Of a stretch of DNA of 32,358 nt, positions 3,407 through 32,358 are shown piece after piece. Numbering within the stretch: the stretch's first letter is position 1; the number at the start of each line of letters is the position of its first letter. Origin of the DNA: a virus; IMG/VR virus record IMGVR_UViG_3300018081_000009, positions 1 through 32,358 of that record, one strand, 5' to 3'. Both the position numbers and the translations under genes were made by a program. The notes beneath the pieces were generated by a model that saw only the letters and a program-made list of their open reading frames with translations, searched no databases and was not told the DNA's origin.

Positions 3407-3621
3407 AGCCACTTCCTAGTGACGAAGTGGTCTAGTCCGATCAGCACGAACACCCCGTAGATAGCGGCCGTGGCCGGCCAGGGGAGGAACCACAGGGTCT
3501 CGGAGATGGTGGGCACGGCCCCCGTAACGATGGCGACTAGCTCATAGACACCTGCTAGCACTCCGAAGATACCAAGCCCGATGGATACCTTGGAGGCGTT
3601 CGATCGGAGACTGAGCCTCAC
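3403..3621 (-). CDS. Two-helix membrane protein, best holin candidate
   Basis: Starting at GTG 3621, which overlaps the upstream stop (GTGA), the product is 72 residues with two membrane segments (about 13-33 and 42-63), a basic N-terminus (RLSLRSNASK) and a basic C-terminal end (TRKWL). The frame can be extended to 3660, but that part lies inside the papain-like gene and the overlap start fits the operon pattern. Its place in the lysis cassette, after the hydrolase, amidase, coiled-coil membrane protein and protease, makes it the most likely holin. This rests on topology and context only. Confidence 0.65.
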   Translation of the reverse strand: MRLSLRSNASKVSIGLGIFGVLAGVYELVAIVTGAVPTISETLWFLPWPATAAIYGVFVLIGLDHFVTRKWL

Positions 3622-4361
3622 GAGAACCACCCGTAGAGCCAGGCCAAGAACTTGTCCCACCAGCTCAGTGGCTTCGGCTGCGGAGGGGTCGGCCCGTCAC
3701 CGGGAACGGTCCGGATGATGGGCACGAGGCACTCCCCGTCTTCGGCCAACAGCTTGCCAAGGTCGGACCAGCTCATCCAGGCGACCCCGCCCCATCCCCA
3801 GTCGGCGCCCCAGGAGTTGTGGACCATGACGGTCTCAGCCTCGACGTTGATGGCCCGCACGAGGATGGCGTGCCCGCCTCGGATAGATCCGGTGGCGTGG
3901 ATCATGCCGGCGGAGTCAGTGTCATCCATGCCGTCGTACCAGTTGACGCCTATGACCACGGGACCCCATTGGGACAGGGTGTCGAGGGCATCCTGGAGAC
4001 CGAAGCCCCAGCGATACTCCGAATACCAGCCCAGGGACAGGAGAACCTTGGCTCCGGCTAGCACCGAGGTCCCTTCGTAGTCCTCTCCCGGCCACTCGTC
4101 CACCTTCTGAGCCCTGTTGTAGATCATGGTGGCGTAGGCGCTGTCGATAAGGTATGGATCGACAGGGACTACCGGGGTGCTGAGGATCTCGTGGGTCAGG
4201 CCATATCCCACACACTCAGGAGTTTCCCACTGATTGAGAAAGCGGTCGAGGTCCCACACTCGGTTGACCAGAGGGACATCAGACAGGAGGGCCCGGATCC
4301 GATAGCCTTTGCTGGCCTCGTCAAACTCCGGGATTCTCCCTAACCCGCCAGCCGGCATCAT
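3618..4361 (-). CDS. Papain-like (C1-type) cysteine protease with tryptophan-rich tail
   Basis: The 247-residue protein keeps the papain catalytic set in the right order and spacing: oxyanion Gln about 44 and Cys about 50 in NQWETPECVGYG (six apart, as Q19/C25 of papain), His about 164 in GGHAILV, and Asn about 182 in HNSWGADWGWGG. There is no clear signal peptide or long propeptide. A Pro-rich linker (about 217-230) leads to LSWWDKFLAWLYGWFS, an aromatic amphipathic end that could attach to membrane or cell wall. The start ATG overlaps the upstream stop (TAATG). It lies between two membrane proteins in the lysis cassette, so a role in lysis or envelope breakdown is inferred; a virion-maturation role is less likely given the distance from the head genes. 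Confidence 0.85.
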   Translation of the reverse strand: MMPAGGLGRIPEFDEASKGYRIRALLSDVPLVNRVWDLDRFLNQWETPECVGYGLTHEILSTPVVPVDPYLIDSAYATMIYNRAQKVDEWPGEDYEGTSVLAGAKVLLSLGWYSEYRWGFGLQDALDTLSQWGPVVIGVNWYDGMDDTDSAGMIHATGSIRGGHAILVRAINVEAETVMVHNSWGADWGWGGVAWMSWSDLGKLLAEDGECLVPIIRTVPGDGPTPPQPKPLSWWDKFLAWLYGWFS

Positions 4362-11043: not shown

Positions 11044-11333
11044 TCAGGTCTCCCCTCTATTTGGGCGGCGCTCGTGGCTGTCTGGGCCAGACGATGTGAG
11101 CCTCTAACGGACCTGGGCTGGTAGCCCTGCTCACGCAGAGCCTTGAATGCGGGCATGTCTCGCTCACGCATCTTCTCCCTGGCTCGGGTACGGTCAGTGG
11201 GTTCGTCCGGCATGCCCTTGGTGTGGGTGACAGCACGGGTGGGCAGAGCGGCAGGACTTATCTGTATGCCGAGAAGGTGATCCCGATAAGGGAGATCACA
11301 TCTCGGGTCCTTGCAACTGGAGGGATGGCTCAT
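11040..11333 (-). CDS. Conserved small hypothetical virion-region protein
   Basis: The 97-residue product has an N-terminal C-x4-C-x2-PYRDHLL segment followed by IQISPAALPTRAV, and a basic helical C-terminal half with DMPAFKALREQGYQPRSVRGS. From memory this D/N-x-P-A-[FY]-K-x-L-x-x-x-G-x-[QR]-P motif recurs in uncharacterised actinophage proteins. It is coupled on both sides (ATGA with the repeat protein, GTGA with the adaptor), so it belongs to the tail module. Role unknown. Confidence 0.6.
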   Translation of the reverse strand: MSHPSSCKDPRCDLPYRDHLLGIQISPAALPTRAVTHTKGMPDEPTDRTRAREKMRERDMPAFKALREQGYQPRSVRGSHRLAQTATSAAQIEGRPE

Positions 11334-12961
11334 GTGATGAAGTCTCCGTATCCTGCCTCGATCAGCTCTGACTCTTCGGCCGTGGTGATGGGGTGGACGT
11401 GCCCACCTTCATACACCCTAGCGGCATTGGCCAGTGCCAGCACCGAGTCATCGTGGGTTTCGGATATCAGCTCTCCCTTGCGGAAGACCCGGTCAATCTG
11501 GCCTCCCTGATAAGGATAGGTCGTCTCATGCCAGTCGGCATTCTGGTCCTTCCAGACGGTGGTGCCCATGGCCCAGGTCTCATAGAACTTCCACAGGGCG
11601 TGGGCCCCGGAGGTCAGCACCTTGTTGGGGTCATAGATCAGGATGCCGGGACGAAGGGGAGGGGTGAATACGGCCACGGGAGGTTCCGCCAGTTCGAGTA
11701 GAGGGGACTCCAGGACTTGCTCCTGGATCATGTTGATGACTCCGAGGTCTATCGGACCAATGTACTCCACTACAGGAGATTCGAGAACCTGGAGCTGTGA
11801 TATGAAGTCGGGGACTGCGAGGTTGTGAACCTGGGTGAGGGCAGGCGCCTCTATAACCTGTAGCTGATCGATACTGCTCACAAATAGATCGATAGGTCCG
11901 CCACCGATAGTTGGCGTCTCCAGCACCTGTAGCTGAGCAATGTCTTGTACGGTCAGGTTGTGAACCTGAGTCAGGGTCGGAGTCTCTAGGACTTGGAGCT
12001 GAGACACTCCGTTGGCTGCAAGGATGTGGGTCTGAGTTATAGCGGGAGACTCTATAACCTGTAGCTGATCTATGTTGTTGGCCCCGATGGTGTGAACCTG
12101 GGTGATAGCCGGAGTCTGTAAGACCTGGAGCTGGCTGACACTGGAGACACCGATCTCATGGACCTGAGTTATAGCGGGAGACTCTATAACCTGGAGCTGA
12201 TCAACATTGTTGACGGTTAGGTCTGTTCCCGAGGCAAGACTGAGGTTGAAGAAGACCATCACCCCGGCGCCAGTAGCAGCCCCGGTAGTGAGCGTGAACA
12301 CCCCATCGGGTCCGGCCGAGGCGGTGCCCGACGTGTAGGTGCGGTCGATGCTGTGCCCACGCAGGTCGGTACCCGACGAGGTGGTGGCGTTCCAGCGGGT
12401 GGTGGCAGCCCCGAACGTGACACCAGCAACGGTGACAGTCATCGGGACGGTCGGTGTGCCGGCATCACCGTTGACACCACAGAACGCCCCGAACATATCA
12501 CCAGAAGCGAAGCTGATAGTGGTGCCCGACGCCGCAGGATCTACCCCCGTGGATGCGACCGTGTTGTCGACGGCGGTGGCACACACGGGAGTGTCCCAGA
12601 CCTCGCCTGCCCCCTTGGAGTAGGAGATGGCGCCCACCATCGTGGCATTGGGGACGCCCGACAGGTCGATGCCGGGCAGGGTGGACCAACTAGCGTCCTT
12701 CTCACGGAAGAACAGGGCCACCCTGATGTTGCCGGCGTCGTTACCGGAGTCGGTCAGACCCGAGTTAGCGTCCTCGTTGTTGGCGGGGTCCTGCCAGCCG
12801 GTCGGAGGGTTGGTGGCGATGGTGGTCGCTGCGTACTTGACGATGACCCCATACACCACCATGTCCCCGTTGGCGGTGCCGGCCGGGAGAGCAGGCGCCG
12901 AGGTAGGGTCGGTGGCTCCGCCAGAGGCTAGGGCGGTTACGCCTCGGAATGCAATGGCCAC
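11330..12961 (-). CDS. Structural protein with eight QLQV repeats
   Basis: The 543-residue protein has three parts. Residues 1-245 are a beta-rich Gly/Ala/Thr domain (APALPAGTANGDMVVYG ... VMVFFNLSLASG) of the type found in phage head-fibre or tail proteins. Residues 248 to about 425 are eight repeats of about 22 residues built on hh-x-QLQV-[IL]-E-[ST]-P-xx-TQxH. Residues about 430-543 form a distinct globular end with many aromatic residues. It starts at GTG 12961 with AGGGG seven bases upstream. It is coupled to the next gene by ATGA. It probably forms an extended fibre or attachment element; adhesion is inference. Confidence 0.7.
   Translation of the reverse strand: MAIAFRGVTALASGGATDPTSAPALPAGTANGDMVVYGVIVKYAATTIATNPPTGWQDPANNEDANSGLTDSGNDAGNIRVALFFREKDASWSTLPGIDLSGVPNATMVGAISYSKGAGEVWDTPVCATAVDNTVASTGVDPAASGTTISFASGDMFGAFCGVNGDAGTPTVPMTVTVAGVTFGAATTRWNATTSSGTDLRGHSIDRTYTSGTASAGPDGVFTLTTGAATGAGVMVFFNLSLASGTDLTVNNVDQLQVIESPAITQVHEIGVSSVSQLQVLQTPAITQVHTIGANNIDQLQVIESPAITQTHILAANGVSQLQVLETPTLTQVHNLTVQDIAQLQVLETPTIGGGPIDLFVSSIDQLQVIEAPALTQVHNLAVPDFISQLQVLESPVVEYIGPIDLGVINMIQEQVLESPLLELAEPPVAVFTPPLRPGILIYDPNKVLTSGAHALWKFYETWAMGTTVWKDQNADWHETTYPYQGGQIDRVFRKGELISETHDDSVLALANAARVYEGGHVHPITTAEESELIEAGYGDFIT
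11691..12220 (-). repeat. In-frame 66-bp repeat array with 132-bp higher-order period
   Basis: Eight units of about 66 bp encode the QLQV repeats. A 30-nt stretch is identical at 12032-12061 and 12164-12193, exactly 132 bp apart (two units). At protein level the units alternate between DQLQVIESP and SQLQVLETP types, so growth by duplication of a two-unit block is likely. The last three units are longer and more diverged. Boundaries are approximate. Confidence 0.8.
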
Positions 12962-25643: not shown

Positions 25644-25814
25644 TTAGTACCTACGTCCACGTGAGCGAGTCCGGCTTGGAGCGGACCTACCACTCCTAGA
25701 TGGAGAGGACTTGCCACGCTTGGGCTTGGAAGATGCGGCCGCTGCGGTTGCCTGGCCTTTAGCGGACTTGGCAACGCCAGTAGCGGACGCATGTGACTTA
25801 CTAGATCGGGGCAT
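25644..25814 (-). CDS. Protamine-like small basic protein
   Basis: A 56-residue frame starts at ATG 25814, overlapping the portal stop (TGATG), and ends directly before the next ATG. The product has 15 Lys/Arg, no Asp or Glu, and is otherwise Ser, Ala and Gly, with a C-terminal SRSGRSAPSRTRSRGRRY tail resembling protamines or SR-rich peptides. It should bind nucleic acid strongly. Coupling to the portal gene suggests a head-internal or packaging role. No named family is assigned; coding is supported by perfect junctions and by filling the whole interval. Confidence 0.65.
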   Translation of the reverse strand: MPRSSKSHASATGVAKSAKGQATAAAASSKPKRGKSSPSRSGRSAPSRTRSRGRRY

Positions 25815-27598
25815 CATCTCATCCTTATGGCTTGGTCGGTTACACCGATTTGACTCAACATCTGAGCCATGTTACCCAGTGACGGCGAGGGTTCACCGAC
25901 TGCCGGGATACCTCCAGGCGCTCCCTCGGGGGCTAGACCTGGCTGAGCCTCCGGGGTCCCGGGCTCAGCACCCAGAGCCTGGGCCTCTTGCAGCTTCTTG
26001 TTGATGTCGTCTACAGCCTCGTACCACTTCTCCCCCTTGGCGAGGCGCATGGCAAACTCAGCCACCTGAGCTGCTTGCCATGGAGCATCGGGGGAAGCGG
26101 CTTGCTCCTGGAAGGCTGCGAAGAACGCATCCTCAGTAGCTTCCAGGCGGATCTCATTTTCCATCGCCTCGTCATCATCGACCATGGGATCGACCTTCAT
26201 GAAGCCACGTCGGCTCATAGTCCGCTGCGCAATCCGCTGTCCCCCGTTGATCACTAGGTCCGATATGTCGTATCCGGTGACGGGGAAATCAACGACATGC
26301 TGGGCCCCTGCCTCGAACACTTCGGAGGGTCGATAGTTGATCGAGCCCCTGACTCCCTTGGTCGAGACATAGAAGGTCTTGTTGTAGTCGAAGTACGCCT
26401 TATCGATCTCGATGGCCCGTAGGTTCTCGTCGTGCAGGGCCTCGGCGAACATGTCCTGAGCGTCTGCGATGGTGAAGTCCACGGCTGCCCCCATAACCTG
26501 AGTACCTCGACGGGCGGTGCGCACGTTGGTGGGGCTCATACCTCCGAACTCTGCCGGCAGACCGGCTGTCTGACGCTGTGCATACTGGAGATCGTTGCGG
26601 ACCGTGCTGCCTCGCAGCGAGGGGTCGAGGGGGGTGTGCACGAGCTGGCCATTGGTGATGACCCCGGGCTCTCCTGTCTGGGCGTCCGGAAGCTGGACTA
26701 CGTGGGGGATGGCACCGTTCTGCGAATTCACGAGCCACGGGGTGGGGTAGATGGCCTTCCTCGTGGCGATCACCTCTAGGGCCATCAGGGCAGCCTCTGT
26801 CTTATACATGCCGAGGATGGCATCGAAGTGCCCTGCCGAGCGGTCCAGGGTGACCCGGGACGGGATGACCACCCAGCACATGCCGGCCCGGTTAGGAGTG
26901 CGGGTCAGCTCGCAATGCTCGGCCCCGGTGCTGGCGGCGAAGTTCTGATCTGAGTCAGCCTGGCCCAGCAGGACCCACACTACCTCTTCGGCATCGATGT
27001 ATTCGAGGCACTCGAACTCGTCGTTGTTCTTGGCCGCCCCTTGGTTCTTGCGAATGACTAGTAAGGCATCGGGATAGTTGTCTGCTAGCCATCGATAGTC
27101 CCGGCGGTGGCGGACAATGCAGTCAGCCGGCGTGAAGCTGTCGAGATGAAGGTGCGAGGGGTACACGTTGAAGGGGTCCACGGGGTCCCAGACCGGGCAG
27201 CTATGAGTGGGATCGGGACGCACGACCACAGGAGCCTTGCCGTATCCGAGTAGCCATCGTGCCCGACGCCCGGTCACCTTCTTGAGGTGTGACTTCTCCC
27301 AGTATCCGTGGATGATCTGCTTGCGCTTTCCGGCCTTCTCCTCGGACTGCTTGATCCCAGGCTTCAATGGAGGGTGCTGCATAGAGGGCAGGACGGATGA
27401 GATACGCCTGGCGAACTGGTCTAGGCCCTGTTGGGTCAGGTTGGCAACGGCGGCCTGTTCGTTGCGTGACAGCTCCGGTAGTGGCAGTACAACGTCCCCG
27501 TTATACACGTCCACCACTGAGCGCATTCTATCAAACTCTGCCCCCATATCAGAGAGGCGTTCCCGATATAGGGTAACGATGTCTTCAACTGAGCGCAT
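25814..27598 (-). CDS. Portal protein
   Basis: The 594-residue product starts at ATG 27598, which overlaps the terminase stop (TGATG); a longer frame to 27661 lies inside the terminase gene. The body fits a podovirus-type portal: a helical N-terminal part (VEDIVTLYRERLSDM), VDVYNGDV, the stretch QAAVANLTQQGLDQFARRISSVLP, DPFNVYPSHL, and a long C-terminal helical crown region that is Gln/Ala/Glu-rich (DDINKKLQEAQALG). Position immediately after the large terminase is the classical order. It would form the dodecameric DNA entry ring of the capsid. Confidence 0.85.
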   Translation of the reverse strand: MRSVEDIVTLYRERLSDMGAEFDRMRSVVDVYNGDVVLPLPELSRNEQAAVANLTQQGLDQFARRISSVLPSMQHPPLKPGIKQSEEKAGKRKQIIHGYWEKSHLKKVTGRRARWLLGYGKAPVVVRPDPTHSCPVWDPVDPFNVYPSHLHLDSFTPADCIVRHRRDYRWLADNYPDALLVIRKNQGAAKNNDEFECLEYIDAEEVVWVLLGQADSDQNFAASTGAEHCELTRTPNRAGMCWVVIPSRVTLDRSAGHFDAILGMYKTEAALMALEVIATRKAIYPTPWLVNSQNGAIPHVVQLPDAQTGEPGVITNGQLVHTPLDPSLRGSTVRNDLQYAQRQTAGLPAEFGGMSPTNVRTARRGTQVMGAAVDFTIADAQDMFAEALHDENLRAIEIDKAYFDYNKTFYVSTKGVRGSINYRPSEVFEAGAQHVVDFPVTGYDISDLVINGGQRIAQRTMSRRGFMKVDPMVDDDEAMENEIRLEATEDAFFAAFQEQAASPDAPWQAAQVAEFAMRLAKGEKWYEAVDDINKKLQEAQALGAEPGTPEAQPGLAPEGAPGGIPAVGEPSPSLGNMAQMLSQIGVTDQAIRMR

Positions 27599-29568
27599 CA
27601 GACTCCAGCGGGCTGGCGAAACAAAGGAGAGCGCCGACCGGCCTTCGAACCGCTCATCCAAGATGGCATGTCAGGATACATCGTACCGATCTTTGTATTA
27701 CTTCCCACTATGTCCTGCAAATGGTACTCTCCGAACCACTGAGCCATCACCGCATCGTCGGTGGTCGAATCAGGGTAGAGAGTGACCTCCTGTACCAAGG
27801 GGAGCACGGCGAGGCGACTCTGGGTGGGCCTGTCCCCTGGCAAACGTATACGTCCGAACTTGTATGCCGAGGGCAGGGTAGCGTAGATGCCCAGCTTGGG
27901 GTCGGCCTTGTTCCTGGTAGTATCGTGTTCTATCACGGACACGTTGCGGGTATTGGCCCAGTCTTGGAAGAACCGGTACTGCATGGCCCATCTCTGTGCG
28001 GCGTTACGTTCCATGATCAGGTAGGTGATGGGGTGGCCCTGCTCCTTGGACCATTGGACCCAGTCCTCGGCTAGCCCCTCTAGCCCCTGTCCGTCCTCGG
28101 TGGGCTGGAGGAACTCATTGGCCCCCATCTTCCCCTTCTTCACGTTGATCAGGTAGCGATACCCTGTCATGTTGTCCGTGGCTGCCGGAGGCAAGACATA
28201 CAGCCAGTCCTGGACACTCCAGAACTTGGTGGGGGATGGGTCCACGGTCATGTAGCGCACCGTATAGGAGCCAGGCGGGATGACCTCGGGGAGCTGGCCG
28301 ATGGCTCTATCGTTGTCCCAGCACCCGAGGTAGTCCACTCCGTCGATGTCCCGGCCGCCATGGACCCACACCTTGCGCACTAGGGCCTTGGTGGGGTCGG
28401 TGTCTTCCTGCTGCCACACCGTGTTGTAGTTCCCGCCCTCCTGGGCGCCTCGAAGCCTCTGCCAACCGATCCTCACAGGGTCCAGGAGGCACCCGTCCGG
28501 CCACGGCTGAGCCTTGCGCCCATGATCCCCCTCGCACTTCTCCTCGTAGTGGGCCTTGTAGATGATCTGTGTGTACTTCTGGATCCCACCCGTGGGGTCA
28601 TCGAAGTCCTCGTCGTCTCCCCCTAGCTCAAAAGTGAGGCGCTTGTCAAGGGCATAGCGGTAAACGTCATTGACTCGTAACCTTTGGCCCACGAGGACAA
28701 GAAGACCGCCTGGCTCCAGGCGGGTCTCGGCCTCGTCGTCGTACCACTCGTAGAGGGCGTCCACAGCGTCCTGGTTTCGGAGCATGGCAGGGGTCACGAG
28801 GTCGTCCCAGTTGATGAAGTTGACCCGCCAGCCCAGGAACTTGGCCTCGTACGAGAAGGCGACCCAGGTGGATTCCTTCTCGGCGGTAGGGGTCTCGCCA
28901 TGCTGGGCCACAGTGAACATCGAGCGCCGCCACAGCTCCCCAGCCTGTGGTCTCAGGGCCCCGAAGTCCTTGGAGAGGGTGGTCTCGGCGTCGAATGCCC
29001 AGCCTCGCTGCTTGTCGTAGAGGCGGGCCTGGACGGGGTTGCGCCGTCCCAGAGAGTCTCTGAGGTTGCCCACCAGGCCCTCGGAAATGATCTTGCCGTG
29101 GGATCCGAGCAGTCCTCGCATGGTTCGATCCCGGACCGTGAGCCAGGCGGGGAAGTCATGCGAGAAGATGGTTGTCTTGCCCCCACCGGGAGGGCAGTTG
29201 ACTACGACGTACTCCTCCTCCTCGGACTCCAGCTTCTCGACAAGCTGGTTGGCTGCGATCTCCTGCCACGGGGTGGAGCGCCGGCCGAAATAGCGTGACC
29301 GGAAGTAGCCGAAGTCGGTGAGGGCCCGCTTGGCCTCGGGACTAAGCTGGTCCTCAGTCTTGGGAGGGCCTATGGAGTCGTCGTGCTCACCGGCAAAGCG
29401 TTCGGGACGGGATCCAGGAGTAGAGTGATCAGCCTTGCCGGTTCGCAGAATCCCCTTGGCGCTCGACTCGGAGAATCCTGCCTTCTCCGCTGACGCCTTG
29501 ATCGAGTACCCCTCTCGCCGGTGGCGATAGAACTTCTCGATCTGGGCGGGTCTGATACGGGCTCCCAT
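27598..29568 (-). CDS. terL: Terminase large subunit with N-terminal helix-turn-helix
   Basis: The 656-residue protein has an ATPase domain with Walker A CPPGGGKT (125-132), Walker B FINWDD (251-256) and a coupling-type segment LLVLVGQRLR, then a nuclease domain starting near YMTVDPSPTKFWS (first catalytic Asp) with further acidic positions in MERNAAQRWA and STTDDAVMAQWFGEY. Before the ATPase, residues about 8-45 form a helix-turn-helix-like element (EKFYRHRREGYSIKASAEKAGFSESSAKG) of the type found in small terminases or recombinases. No separate small terminase is visible in the window. The start has no strong ribosome binding site and lies inside the preceding frame. Confidence 0.9.
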   Translation of the reverse strand: MGARIRPAQIEKFYRHRREGYSIKASAEKAGFSESSAKGILRTGKADHSTPGSRPERFAGEHDDSIGPPKTEDQLSPEAKRALTDFGYFRSRYFGRRSTPWQEIAANQLVEKLESEEEEYVVVNCPPGGGKTTIFSHDFPAWLTVRDRTMRGLLGSHGKIISEGLVGNLRDSLGRRNPVQARLYDKQRGWAFDAETTLSKDFGALRPQAGELWRRSMFTVAQHGETPTAEKESTWVAFSYEAKFLGWRVNFINWDDLVTPAMLRNQDAVDALYEWYDDEAETRLEPGGLLVLVGQRLRVNDVYRYALDKRLTFELGGDDEDFDDPTGGIQKYTQIIYKAHYEEKCEGDHGRKAQPWPDGCLLDPVRIGWQRLRGAQEGGNYNTVWQQEDTDPTKALVRKVWVHGGRDIDGVDYLGCWDNDRAIGQLPEVIPPGSYTVRYMTVDPSPTKFWSVQDWLYVLPPAATDNMTGYRYLINVKKGKMGANEFLQPTEDGQGLEGLAEDWVQWSKEQGHPITYLIMERNAAQRWAMQYRFFQDWANTRNVSVIEHDTTRNKADPKLGIYATLPSAYKFGRIRLPGDRPTQSRLAVLPLVQEVTLYPDSTTDDAVMAQWFGEYHLQDIVGSNTKIGTMYPDMPSWMSGSKAGRRSPLFRQPAGV

Positions 29569-29767
29569 AGTAGTGGCCAGGATACAGGGTCTTATCCTGA
29601 TGCCGATACTTGAGGCTCTGGGCTCCGAGAAGGAGTACCGTTCCGAAGAACCCGAGGGCAGTTGTCAGAAGAGTGATGGCGTAGATGGCGGCCAGGTCTC
29701 CCAAGATAACCGACCACAGGCATGTTACGATTGCATAACAGCCGAAGATTGCGAGGATGTATCTCAC
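29429..29767 (-). CDS. Small two-helix membrane protein overlapping terminase
   Basis: GTG 29767 overlaps the stop of the FtsK-like gene (GTGA). The 112-residue product has two membrane segments (about 3-22 and 25-48) and a hydrophilic tail with HQDKTLYPGHYYGSPYQ. The last 46 codons overlap the terminase start region in another frame (140 nt), unusually long for this operon; the true functional part may be only the membrane segments. In actinomycete conjugative elements, small membrane proteins (Spd type) often follow the Tra translocase, so partnership with the upstream gene is a reasonable guess. Confidence 0.55.
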   Translation of the reverse strand: MRYILAIFGCYAIVTCLWSVILGDLAAIYAITLLTTALGFFGTVLLLGAQSLKYRHQDKTLYPGHYYGSPYQTRPDREVLSPPARGVLDQGVSGEGRILRVERQGDSANRQG

Positions 29768-31914
29768 GGCTTCTTCACTCCCAGATAGTCGGCCAGATTG
29801 CCTTCGAGGCGGAACCACTCCCGGTTCGGATAGACCCGATGGGCCTTCCATCGCTCGTGAAGCTCGGTCTCTAGATCCTTGCTGTGCTGAGTATCACGAC
29901 AGTCTAGCGTCAGCATCTTGTCGTCCTCGTGCAGGGCGAGATCATCCAACCTCTGATTGAGATTGTCAGTCCGGCCGATCTTGATGGTGTCCCCATACTT
30001 GACGTTGGAGGCTCCACCGGGAGCCAGGAAGTAGACCAGGGGCTGGTACATCTCCCGATTGTCAGGAGACCTCTCACGACCCTCCCAGAACTTGAGGAGG
30101 AACTCCTCCTGGTATTGGTCGCCACCTTGGTTGGCGGGACGGGTGATTACAGGCTCGATGAAAGCGCCCTTCTTCTTGGCTCGGGTGGCAGCCCTCTTGA
30201 GCCGATCGTACGGGATACCCCACTTTCTGGCCGCCTCGGGCAGGGTTAGGAGGGTCGTGTCGTCGGTGAGATCGGGTCCCGGGACCTCAGAAACGTCCTG
30301 CATAGACGCTATGGGGACGTCCTCCGGGACGTAGAAGCGCTCCGGAACCCCGGGCGCCACTGCCGTGGCGATTGGGCCCGGGGATTCTCGTCGCTTGTAC
30401 TGCTCCGTCCCCCGGTCGGTCAAGCCTCTTGTCTCAGCGACCCACTCCTCGGCGTCATCGTCCGTGATATATAGCATTCTCGTTTCTATTGAAACAGCTC
30501 CATGACACACCATCGCCCAGCCGTCAGACTCCACTGATGGGATGTAGTCGCACTCCGGGACCAACATCTCCCACGCCTTCTTCGTGTACCCACTCACGAG
30601 GATACGTAGCACGTAGTTCTCCCGGGCCAGCCCGCCGCCCATGGCCTTGGCATCACCACGCTGGGCTAGACCTATGACGTTGAAACCTGCTATTCTGCTC
30701 ATGTTGAGCATCATCCGCAGATCCATAACCGGAGTACAGGGCCCCTTGTCGAAGTGCCGCCACCACTGTTCCAGCTCGGCCATCAGCGTGGGTGCTTCCT
30801 CTACGATCAGCACCCTACGAGCTAGCCCGGCAACGTACGCCTCTACCTCCCGACGAGGCAGGGTGTCAGCGTGCGCCACACGGTCCCTAACCTCTTGCGC
30901 CAGGTCGGTGATCGCCCGAGCGATGGACGGCATGTCGTGCACGTTGTGGGCGCCAGGAAGGTCACGGAGCCAGAGCTGTGAGAGGTGCTTGTTGTCGATA
31001 TTGGTGATCTCGCACTCTTCATCCTGGGCCATCAACTGCACGGCGATGGAGCGTGCTCCGGCGGACTTACCTCCCCCGGTGGGGCCAGAAATCAGGACAT
31101 GCGGATGCCGGGAGAGGTCATACTTGACTTGCACCCCGTCACGAGACTGGCCTAGCCATACCTCGGCGGGTCGAGTAGCCTTGACCATCTTACGCACCGT
31201 GCCGTTGGGGGTCCCATTCTTGTCAGTCCACGGGGTCTTGTCTGGCAGCTTGGCGGCCGGCAGGAATCTCACGGAGCCCGAGCGCCCGGCTAGGGCCCAC
31301 TTGTGTTCCACGTCCCCTAGGTCCACGTCGGCCCGGACCCTGACGGCATGGACGATGGCCTCTAGGTTCTCATCTGCCACATTGCATTCAGGGTGCACCT
31401 TGACTTCGAGTCCCACACCCCACATGGCCCTAAACCTCCGGAATCGGACCACTCGGCACGCAGCTCTGCGAGGCTGGTCCTTACCGTTCCAGCCTGCGAG
31501 CTGTCGGGTGGCATTGGCCACGGGGCGGATCCACCACTTGTGTACGGCACGCTGTACGGCACACCAGGCGATCAGCACAGCGAGCCCGCCTAGCATCCAT
31601 GCTGCGGTGTATGAGCGCCACACGAGGCTAAGGGACAGGGGATGGCCGGCTCGCATAGCCTCGGCCATAAGTAGTCCGGTGGTTCCGGCCGAGCGCCCGA
31701 GGCCCACCAGGGTCCGGTGTCTGGGATCCTGCTTCTCCTCGGTTAGCTCAGTCTCTAGGGGCCCTCCGGTGAACCAGTAGAGGACCAGGGTGGCGATCTC
31801 CTGGTCTAGCCATAGTCTCTTGCGCTCCTTGGCGAAGTGGACCCACACCATGGCGGCCGCAATCGCCACGAGGACGAGAAGGACGAACGGGCGCCACGGT
31901 GCGAGTAGAAACAT
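29764..31914 (-). CDS. FtsK/Tra-like DNA translocase fused to a GIY-YIG (T5orf172-like) domain
   Basis: The 716-residue protein has membrane segments at about 8-27 and 102-122, then an FtsK/HerA-type ATPase: HPHVLISGPTGGGKS (Walker A 277-284), VLIVEEAP (Walker B 368-373), and VIGLAQRGDAKAMGGG...REN, very like Tra proteins of actinomycete plasmids and integrative elements. A winged-helix-like segment follows (LLTLPEAARKWGIPYDRLKRA, about 555-580), also typical of those proteins. Residues about 624-716 add a GIY-YIG nuclease-type domain: VYFLAPGG, IKIGRTDNLNQR, ETELHERW and EWF, as in T5orf172/MUG113 proteins. It could pump double-stranded DNA across the membrane or act in DNA entry or segregation. 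The start is four bases after the upstream stop. Confidence 0.85.
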   Translation of the reverse strand: MFLLAPWRPFVLLVLVAIAAAMVWVHFAKERKRLWLDQEIATLVLYWFTGGPLETELTEEKQDPRHRTLVGLGRSAGTTGLLMAEAMRAGHPLSLSLVWRSYTAAWMLGGLAVLIAWCAVQRAVHKWWIRPVANATRQLAGWNGKDQPRRAACRVVRFRRFRAMWGVGLEVKVHPECNVADENLEAIVHAVRVRADVDLGDVEHKWALAGRSGSVRFLPAAKLPDKTPWTDKNGTPNGTVRKMVKATRPAEVWLGQSRDGVQVKYDLSRHPHVLISGPTGGGKSAGARSIAVQLMAQDEECEITNIDNKHLSQLWLRDLPGAHNVHDMPSIARAITDLAQEVRDRVAHADTLPRREVEAYVAGLARRVLIVEEAPTLMAELEQWWRHFDKGPCTPVMDLRMMLNMSRIAGFNVIGLAQRGDAKAMGGGLARENYVLRILVSGYTKKAWEMLVPECDYIPSVESDGWAMVCHGAVSIETRMLYITDDDAEEWVAETRGLTDRGTEQYKRRESPGPIATAVAPGVPERFYVPEDVPIASMQDVSEVPGPDLTDDTTLLTLPEAARKWGIPYDRLKRAATRAKKKGAFIEPVITRPANQGGDQYQEEFLLKFWEGRERSPDNREMYQPLVYFLAPGGASNVKYGDTIKIGRTDNLNQRLDDLALHEDDKMLTLDCRDTQHSKDLETELHERWKAHRVYPNREWFRLEGNLADYLGVKKP

Positions 31915-31918
31915 GAGG

Positions 31919-32107
31919 CTAGGCTATCCGGGGCTTGACACCTTCGCTCTGGTGTGAGACACTGTATCCGTGGAAATCATCCTCGTTCTCGTCTTCATAG
32001 CCATCTTCAACGGCGTACCGCTGATATTCCGCCGATATTGGTCCGAATGTCCGTGATTTCGGGCAAATCTGCCTAGAATAGACTCTGAGGCTTACGGTAT
32101 TGTCCAT
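31919..32107 (-). CDS. Small acidic hypothetical protein, first gene of the leftward operon
   Basis: A 62-residue frame starts at ATG 32107 with AGGA about five bases upstream and ends four bases before the translocase start. The N-terminal half is basic with one Cys (SRQICPKSRTF); the C-terminal half is strongly acidic (EDGYEDENEDD). No family is recognised. Coupling to the next gene and the ribosome binding site support it; composition alone does not. A short hydrophobic frame antisense to it is the expected shadow of its acidic run. Confidence 0.5.
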   Translation of the reverse strand: MDNTVSLRVYSRQICPKSRTFGPISAEYQRYAVEDGYEDENEDDFHGYSVSHQSEGVKPRIA

Positions 32108-32358
32108 TGGTTCCTGTGATATAACACACTACATAGACACCCGGCCGCCTGGGCACACGGGGGGTCAAACATTCATGCATGCACCATCACCACGACACGA
32201 TGTCACCACATCACACCATCACCACGTGGTGTGCGTGCGTGGTGCCCCTGCCCCCCGTGGGTGTGGGGTGCGTGGTGTCCATCATGTATATGATTGATAT
32301 GTATACATGGATGCGTGGGCGCAGCGTCACTAGGGGCAGCGTGACTAGGTGGGTGTGA
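32108..32358. promoter_or_regulatory. Upstream region of the leftward operon, rich in palindromes and CAC/GTG repeats
   Basis: No gene is visible in these 251 bases. They hold a CAC/ATC-rich stretch (about 32180-32225), the perfect 12-bp palindrome CACCACGTGGTG (32220-32231), a GTG-rich stretch (to about 32280), an AT-rich inverted repeat CATGTATA (32283-32290) with TATACATG (32302-32309), and a 14-bp near-perfect direct repeat GCAGCGTSACTAGG (32321-32334 and 32336-32349). On the - strand a TTGACC (32163-32168 region) could be a -35 box, but no -10 at proper spacing was found. Regulation or replication origin are both possible. Confidence 0.45.

Follow-up and report, generated by a model that had tools for sequence, protein, structure and literature searches.

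The gene just upstream of the terminase in the viral record IMGVR_UViG_3300018081_000009, here called tra-giy, raises the question of whether a phage can carry a conjugation-type DNA pump joined to a nuclease in one protein and, if so, what such a protein would do. The first-pass annotation of the window (the whole stretch of 32,358 nt analysed here) had placed membrane segments, Walker A and B motifs, a wHTH-like region and a C-terminal GIY-YIG domain in a single frame just upstream of terminase and portal genes; Pfam, hydropathy and AlphaFold2 agree with this layout, and the gene positions agree with the neighbourhood described (Table 1). In the list of open reading frames of the window tra-giy starts with ATG and has no internal stops. 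A frameshift or assembly join at about 30,050 had been named as the event that could have created the fusion; the whole gene shows phage-like codon usage in its reading frame, and since the in-frame signal is continuous across the junction (residues 560-716) there is no sign of such a join. The gene is an intact fusion read in one frame. That an assembly or frameshift artefact united two genes can hardly be credited: the fusion is known from a single viral record, but the coding signal stays in frame through the junction and codon use is phage-like before and after it, the GIY-YIG domain comes directly after the wHTH-like region, and relatives in which the genes are not fused show the same gene order.

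Table 1. Coordinates of tra-giy, its parts and neighbouring features in the window.
Feature	Position	Strand	Basis
tra-giy, 716-aa FtsK/Tra-type DNA translocase with C-terminal GIY-YIG domain	29764..31914	-	Single open frame
Hydrophobic segment 1, residues 10-28	31831..31887	-	Hydropathy
Hydrophobic segment 2, residues 102-120	31555..31611	-	Hydropathy
FtsK/SpoIIIE motor, residues 245-500	30415..31182	-	PF01580; AlphaFold2 model; PDB matches TcpA and FtsK; tree
Walker A GPTGGGKS, residues 277-284	31063..31086	-	G280, G282, K283 and S284 invariant in motor alignment
Walker-B-like RRVLIVEEAP, residues 366-375	30790..30819	-	E372 and E373 invariant in motor alignment
Helix-turn-helix-like region, residues 551-614	30073..30264	-	AlphaFold2 model; HTH_59 under Pfam cut-off
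GIY-YIG (T5orf172/MUG113) domain, residues 628-706	29797..30033	-	Pfam; alignment; separate model; fold matches
Small ORF with two hydrophobic segments	29429..29767	-	Hydropathy; tail may be non-coding
Terminase large subunit (TerL), separate from translocase	27598..29568	-	phrog_38, E 3.9e-35; about 40% identity to 23 IMG/VR terminases
Portal protein, assigned by its place after TerL	25814..27661	-	Homologous to post-TerL gene of relatives, 35-37% identity
Five CACCACG/CGTGGTG motifs upstream of tra-giy; candidate clt-like or iteron site	32188..32277		Densest 7-mer cluster

The motor part was assigned by sequence, by fold and by phylogeny. Pfam FtsK_SpoIIIE matches residues 245-370 over the curated cut-off (E 1.2e-8), and the PHROGs match of the protein is to an FtsK/SpoIIIE-like family (E 3.4e-16). 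The motor alignment, tra-giy included, holds 34 invariant columns, which comprise the Walker motifs and conserved motor residues. Among solved proteins the nearest in sequence is TcpA, a DNA translocase encoded by the conjugative plasmid pCW3 (E 2.6e-5), and FtsK is next; the AlphaFold2 model of the motor, with a pLDDT of about 85-96 over most of residues 230-500, gave TcpA as the top Foldseek match (E 9e-18) and the FtsK motor as the second. A tblastn search of 72,556 plasmids with the tra-giy protein matched 71, of which 53 were from Streptomyces and many were annotated pRL2-11, the identity to pRL2-11-type plasmid proteins being about 30-35% over residues 190-500. A tree built from 28 motor domains placed tra-giy and 11 pRL2-11-type proteins on one 100/100 branch, apart from chromosomal FtsK, from pIJ101 TraB and from two other phage groups; because the branch of tra-giy itself is long (1.37), its placement inside or beside the pRL2-11 clade is unsure. 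The earlier proposal that the ATPase resembles actinomycete Tra proteins is thus supported by the sequence matches, the modelled fold and the tree, and we take the tra-giy ATPase to be of the conjugation/Tra type. A terminase-like packaging motor, the grouping that had been held up against this proposal, is ruled out by the FtsK/TcpA family and fold and by the presence of TerL as a distinct gene. It should be added that in the literature searched we found no report of conjugal transfer or dsDNA spread by pRL2-11.

Comparison with known translocases shows which parts of tra-giy are shared. The pRL2-11 family, from linear plasmids of Streptomyces (pRL2, pPR2, pPSED03 and others), has the ATPase clade, the hydrophobic N-terminal part and the C-terminal HTH-like region in common with tra-giy, but the GIY-YIG domain is absent from every plasmid member examined, and the genes are plasmid-borne and do not adjoin a terminase. 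TraB/Tra of pIJ101, pSVH1 and AICEs, which serve dsDNA conjugation and spread, likewise combine an FtsK-like motor with an N-terminal membrane part and a C-terminal HTH-like region; we know of no nuclease domain in these proteins, and pIJ101 TraB lies outside the branch that holds pRL2-11 and the window protein. TcpA of pCW3 (6o1w), the best match to the motor in both sequence and fold, is a coupling protein in a multi-protein conjugation system and, unlike tra-giy, is without a GIY-YIG domain. In Streptomyces TraB the C-terminal wHTH recognises 8-bp repeats, and the protein forms hexamers and membrane pores (PMC3583192). The HTH-like region of tra-giy stands where related translocases have this DNA-recognition wHTH, and its likeness to the plasmid tails is weak: hhalign gave a non-significant E of 0.029, and L033 alone was above shuffles (z 3.5).

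The C-terminal part is matched by two Pfam families. MUG113, which we take to belong to the GIY-YIG group, covers residues 645-706 (E 8.3e-11, 42.8 bits for a cut-off of 22.3). T5orf172, which also belongs to that group (PMC8263062), covers residues 628-704 (E 1.6e-8, 35.4 bits for a cut-off of 20). When tra-giy was aligned with 18 IMG/VR relatives, all of the invariant residues were found to be kept in it (Y628, K645-I-G, R655, E682, H686 and E699-W-F); the catalytic Tyr, Arg and Glu (Y628, R655 and E682) are among them, while the position of the second Tyr is taken by Lys645, likewise in all 19 sequences. The whole-protein AlphaFold2 run left this part, which has few homologues, unmodelled, and the domain was therefore modelled separately, with a mean pLDDT of 83.6. 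The top five Foldseek rows and the top 11 VIA-align rows for this model were all GIY-YIG proteins, at modest scores (E 0.4 and up and Z 4.2-5.2, respectively), and the structural matches include UvrC, Slx1, HIGLE and UPF0213; no solved structure was matched when searched by sequence with the GIY-YIG part. With two families over the cut-off and top structural matches all of one kind, the C-terminal GIY-YIG domain of the first-pass annotation is supported, as a predicted nuclease. T5orf172 domains can be active nucleases and the conserved Glu is required, as in Odn of phage ICP1 (PMC8263062, PMC10448857). Odn (Gp88) resembles tra-giy in that a T5orf172 domain is joined to a targeting module borrowed from the machinery of its target, in this case a replication-origin-binding domain (PMC8263062); it differs in having no translocase and in acting on satellite origins.

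The first-pass annotation had also presented the occurrence of such a pump in a phage as a novelty, and in this it went too far. A gene of the pRL2-11 type is present in Streptomyces phage Dagobah and in the IMG/VR contigs L031, L032 and L033, and both plasmid-phage ZL12 and phage-plasmids of Streptomyces have an FtsK-like gene just upstream of the terminase. What we did not find is a second Tra-GIY fusion, neither by tblastn in 50,697 phages and 72,556 plasmids, nor by IMG/VR pattern scans with the whole protein or its C-terminal part, nor in 396 genomes of the phylum, where only the centre genome was above threshold, nor in the 38 IMG/VR GIY-YIG contigs described below. The fusion, which none of the other searched records shows, seems to be new, as does its context. 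The Streptomyces elements NBC_01259 (90 kb) and NBC_01590 (102 kb), both circular and with phage genes, come close to it: the order of their genes is FtsK-like membrane ATPase, small gene, GIY-YIG (T5orf172) gene, small gene and terminase, the last small gene being DNA-binding in NBC_01259. Like tra-giy, the ATPases of pZL12 and of these two elements are just upstream of TerL, with the T5orf172 gene in between in the NBC elements; unlike tra-giy, pump and nuclease are separate genes and the ATPase is of a different clade. Pfam does not place the gene that separates the FtsK-like gene of ZL12 from its terminase in the GIY-YIG group. Conjugal transfer of pZL12 is reported to require a tra gene and two adjacent genes (PMC3583192).

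Two IMG/VR scans with the GIY-YIG domains of the NBC elements yielded 38 different contigs, including a few near-duplicates. An FtsK-like gene was found within about 6 kb of the GIY-YIG gene in 23 of the 38 (16 by our own profiles in the flanks and seven by Pfam on whole records, some below the Pfam cut-off), compared with an FtsK match in none of the 73 records with a window-related terminase, which is not a clean control because FtsK-like and GIY-YIG genes both favour the terminase region. In the motor tree three separate clades of pumps pair with the nuclease. In 18 of the 38 contigs a segment of several hydrophobic helices precedes the GIY-YIG domain in the same protein, in a position like that of a spread protein; these segments matched the DUF2637 proteins of pRL2 and pPR2 with an hhalign E of 3.8e-5 at a probability of just 44%, so that "Spd-like" here refers to shape and position and not to a proved family. 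In L168 membrane protein, pump and nuclease are three consecutive genes. Two of the contigs, L168 and L171, had been candidates for a motor and GIY-YIG domain in the same ORF and were rejected, the shared segment being the wHTH alone and the motor a separate gene.

This shared wHTH bears on how the two activities may be coupled. The C-terminal wHTH of the nuclease is paralogous to that of the neighbouring pump in L168 (25/45 identical), L171 (24/45) and L166 (31/85), at 15-24 standard deviations above shuffles, and the nucleases of L160 and L169 bear an FtsK_gamma domain (E 2.4e-17 and 1.2e-18) similar to the one in the chromosomal FtsK of actinobacteria. By sequence, at least five records thus have a nuclease that borrows the DNA-recognition domain of a pump, and uniting both activities in a single polypeptide, as tra-giy does, would have the same effect. 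For eight further pairs (L164, L185, L188, L197, L206, L213, L074 and L075) no match between nuclease tail and pump tail was found. The L160 and L169 nucleases (L160:5023-6720 and L169:5899-6486, the latter encoded directly before the terminase) may, judging by FtsK_gamma, cut at host chromosomal FtsK sites. Such targeting would fit an attack on host or rival DNA, in which a membrane-anchored motor draws in DNA of the host chromosome or of competing elements for cleavage by the GIY-YIG domain, to the end of host takeover or superinfection exclusion; HerA/FtsK ATPases with nucleases are common in systems directed against invaders (PMC10853773), and PADLOC gave weak matches to the HerA-like mad8 and SspH ATPases. 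We nevertheless consider this reading unlikely for tra-giy, whose ATPase groups with plasmid Tra-like proteins and whose gene is located within the structural-gene cluster, the PADLOC matches reflecting a shared ATPase fold and being obtained equally with a plasmid protein.

The position of these genes next to the terminase suggests two further explanations. Besides tra-giy, which stands just upstream of TerL and portal, a GIY-YIG gene is found just upstream of TerL in L074, L075, L169, L185, L188 and L197, and in L185, L188 and L197 the order is FtsK-like gene, GIY-YIG gene and TerL on one strand. The protein could therefore be a packaging accessory, the nuclease making or trimming genome ends by cos-like cleavage and the motor feeding the neighbouring terminase, by analogy with the HNH nuclease upstream of the HK97 terminase, which aids cos cleavage (PMC10448857). 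We regard this as quite unlikely given a complete and separate TerL, the 73 terminase relatives without any FtsK-like gene, the hydrophobic segments and Spd-like fusions that point to membranes, and the Spd-Tra-GIY set of L168, a record with no PF03237 terminase match. A captured homing endonuclease, i.e. a T5orf172 homing gene at a terminase hot spot that was fused to tra by chance and has no role in transfer, would agree with the observation that T5orf172 genes are often homing genes and that 35% of their surveyed neighbourhoods contain a terminase gene (PMC10448857). This too is decidedly improbable: homing leaves unexplained the repeated fusions of this GIY-YIG family to Spd-like membrane segments, to FtsK_gamma and to a paralogue of the pump wHTH, and the Pfam scan of tra-giy detected neither a CapR nor a DUF723-type binding domain. 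The latter result, together with a GIY-YIG domain in frame with the translocase, also speaks against a free-standing T5orf172 homing gene.

We put at about even the chances that tra-giy encodes a conjugation- or spread-type dsDNA pump whose attached nuclease is directed at the very DNA that the pump moves, and it is from the domains and their context that we infer both transfer and cleavage. Pump and nuclease probably work together on the same DNA, as is supported by the recurrence of their pairing upstream of the terminase in other phages and phage-plasmids. The product would be a membrane-anchored hexameric dsDNA translocase of the pRL2-11 Tra type with a GIY-YIG nuclease on its C-terminus; the helix-turn-helix would load the pump onto specific sites in phage or plasmid DNA, the GIY-YIG domain would nick or cut the DNA at or near those loading sites, and the hexamer would drive the DNA through a membrane pore at the septum or between cells. 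An extrachromosomal phage genome could thereby spread between compartments or cells in the style of a conjugative plasmid. In the relatives the same coupling would apparently be achieved by a separate nuclease that has been given the recognition domain of the pump. More doubtful, and put forward tentatively, is the wider proposal that actinophages and phage-plasmids carry a conjugation-type pump with a site-directed GIY-YIG nuclease of its own, in tra-giy as part of one polypeptide, which nicks or cuts DNA where the pump loads, allowing phage DNA to pass septa or cell contacts with no need of a virion.

Four points tell against this reading. Actinobacterial transfer is described as the movement of unprocessed dsDNA by one FtsK-like protein (PMC3218068), so that there is no known need for a nuclease. 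A plasmid-like state is conjectural, since the 32-kb record, probably a fragment, has no match to integrase (PF00589) or ParA (PF13614). Homing T5orf172 genes beside terminases could account for part of the linkage (PMC10448857). Finally, the tails of nuclease and pump are unmatched in the eight pairs listed above and the wHTH of tra-giy is only weakly like the plasmid tails. If transfer by the pump is nevertheless accepted, the presence of a pump-nuclease set upstream of the terminase in several actinophages and phage-plasmids would tie plasmid-style spread to phages, through genes whose usual annotation is hypothetical, FtsK-like or "GIY-YIG nuclease family". The passage of a closed circle in actinomycete conjugation is, to our knowledge, unsettled, and a fused or co-targeted nuclease would be a concrete candidate for a DNA-processing step.

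The immediate surroundings of tra-giy in the window bear out some details of the first-pass annotation and not others. A small Spd-like membrane protein had been described after tra-giy; the ORF at this place does have two hydrophobic segments, but it has no family match above the Pfam cut-off and its tail, which overlaps the terminase start out of frame, scores as non-coding. A small hydrophobic ORF is found at the same place in the relatives L010 and L012. That tra-giy is the second gene of an operon is doubtful, since the 62-aa ORF upstream (31919-32107) scores as poorly coding. As for TRS-like repeat clusters, which were to be looked for, the CACCACG cluster upstream is suggestive with five copies against simulated maxima of 3-4, but it is located in low-complexity sequence near the contig end. 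The region 32110-32358 at this end is non-coding and repeat-rich, with CACCATCACCACG and GCAGCGTSACTA each present twice; iterons, a clt site or a genome terminus are possible. The portal gene product had no Pfam or PHROG match, and a portal-based scan for relatives found nothing. The terminase belongs to a poorly described group with no match among 50,697 phage records, its relatives at about 40% identity occurring in many freshwater and other IMG/VR contigs, of which the longer ones are often 36-42 kb.

The host of the phage is probably actinobacterial, as indicated by the plasmid relatives and by an Rv2525c-like gene in the lysis region. This region also encodes, at 3618-4361 on the minus strand, a 247-aa protein with no Pfam match in which a papain-like signature was seen by eye (GHAILV..., HNSWGADWGWGG). 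At 272-1045, on the plus strand and thus opposite to the structural genes, there is a gene of the phage RNA ligase family (PF09414, E 2.1e-15). A 543-aa protein encoded at 11330-12961 on the minus strand has a repeated QLQV(I/L)E(S/T)P unit, and its gene contains a 66-bp tandem repeat at 12032-12202.
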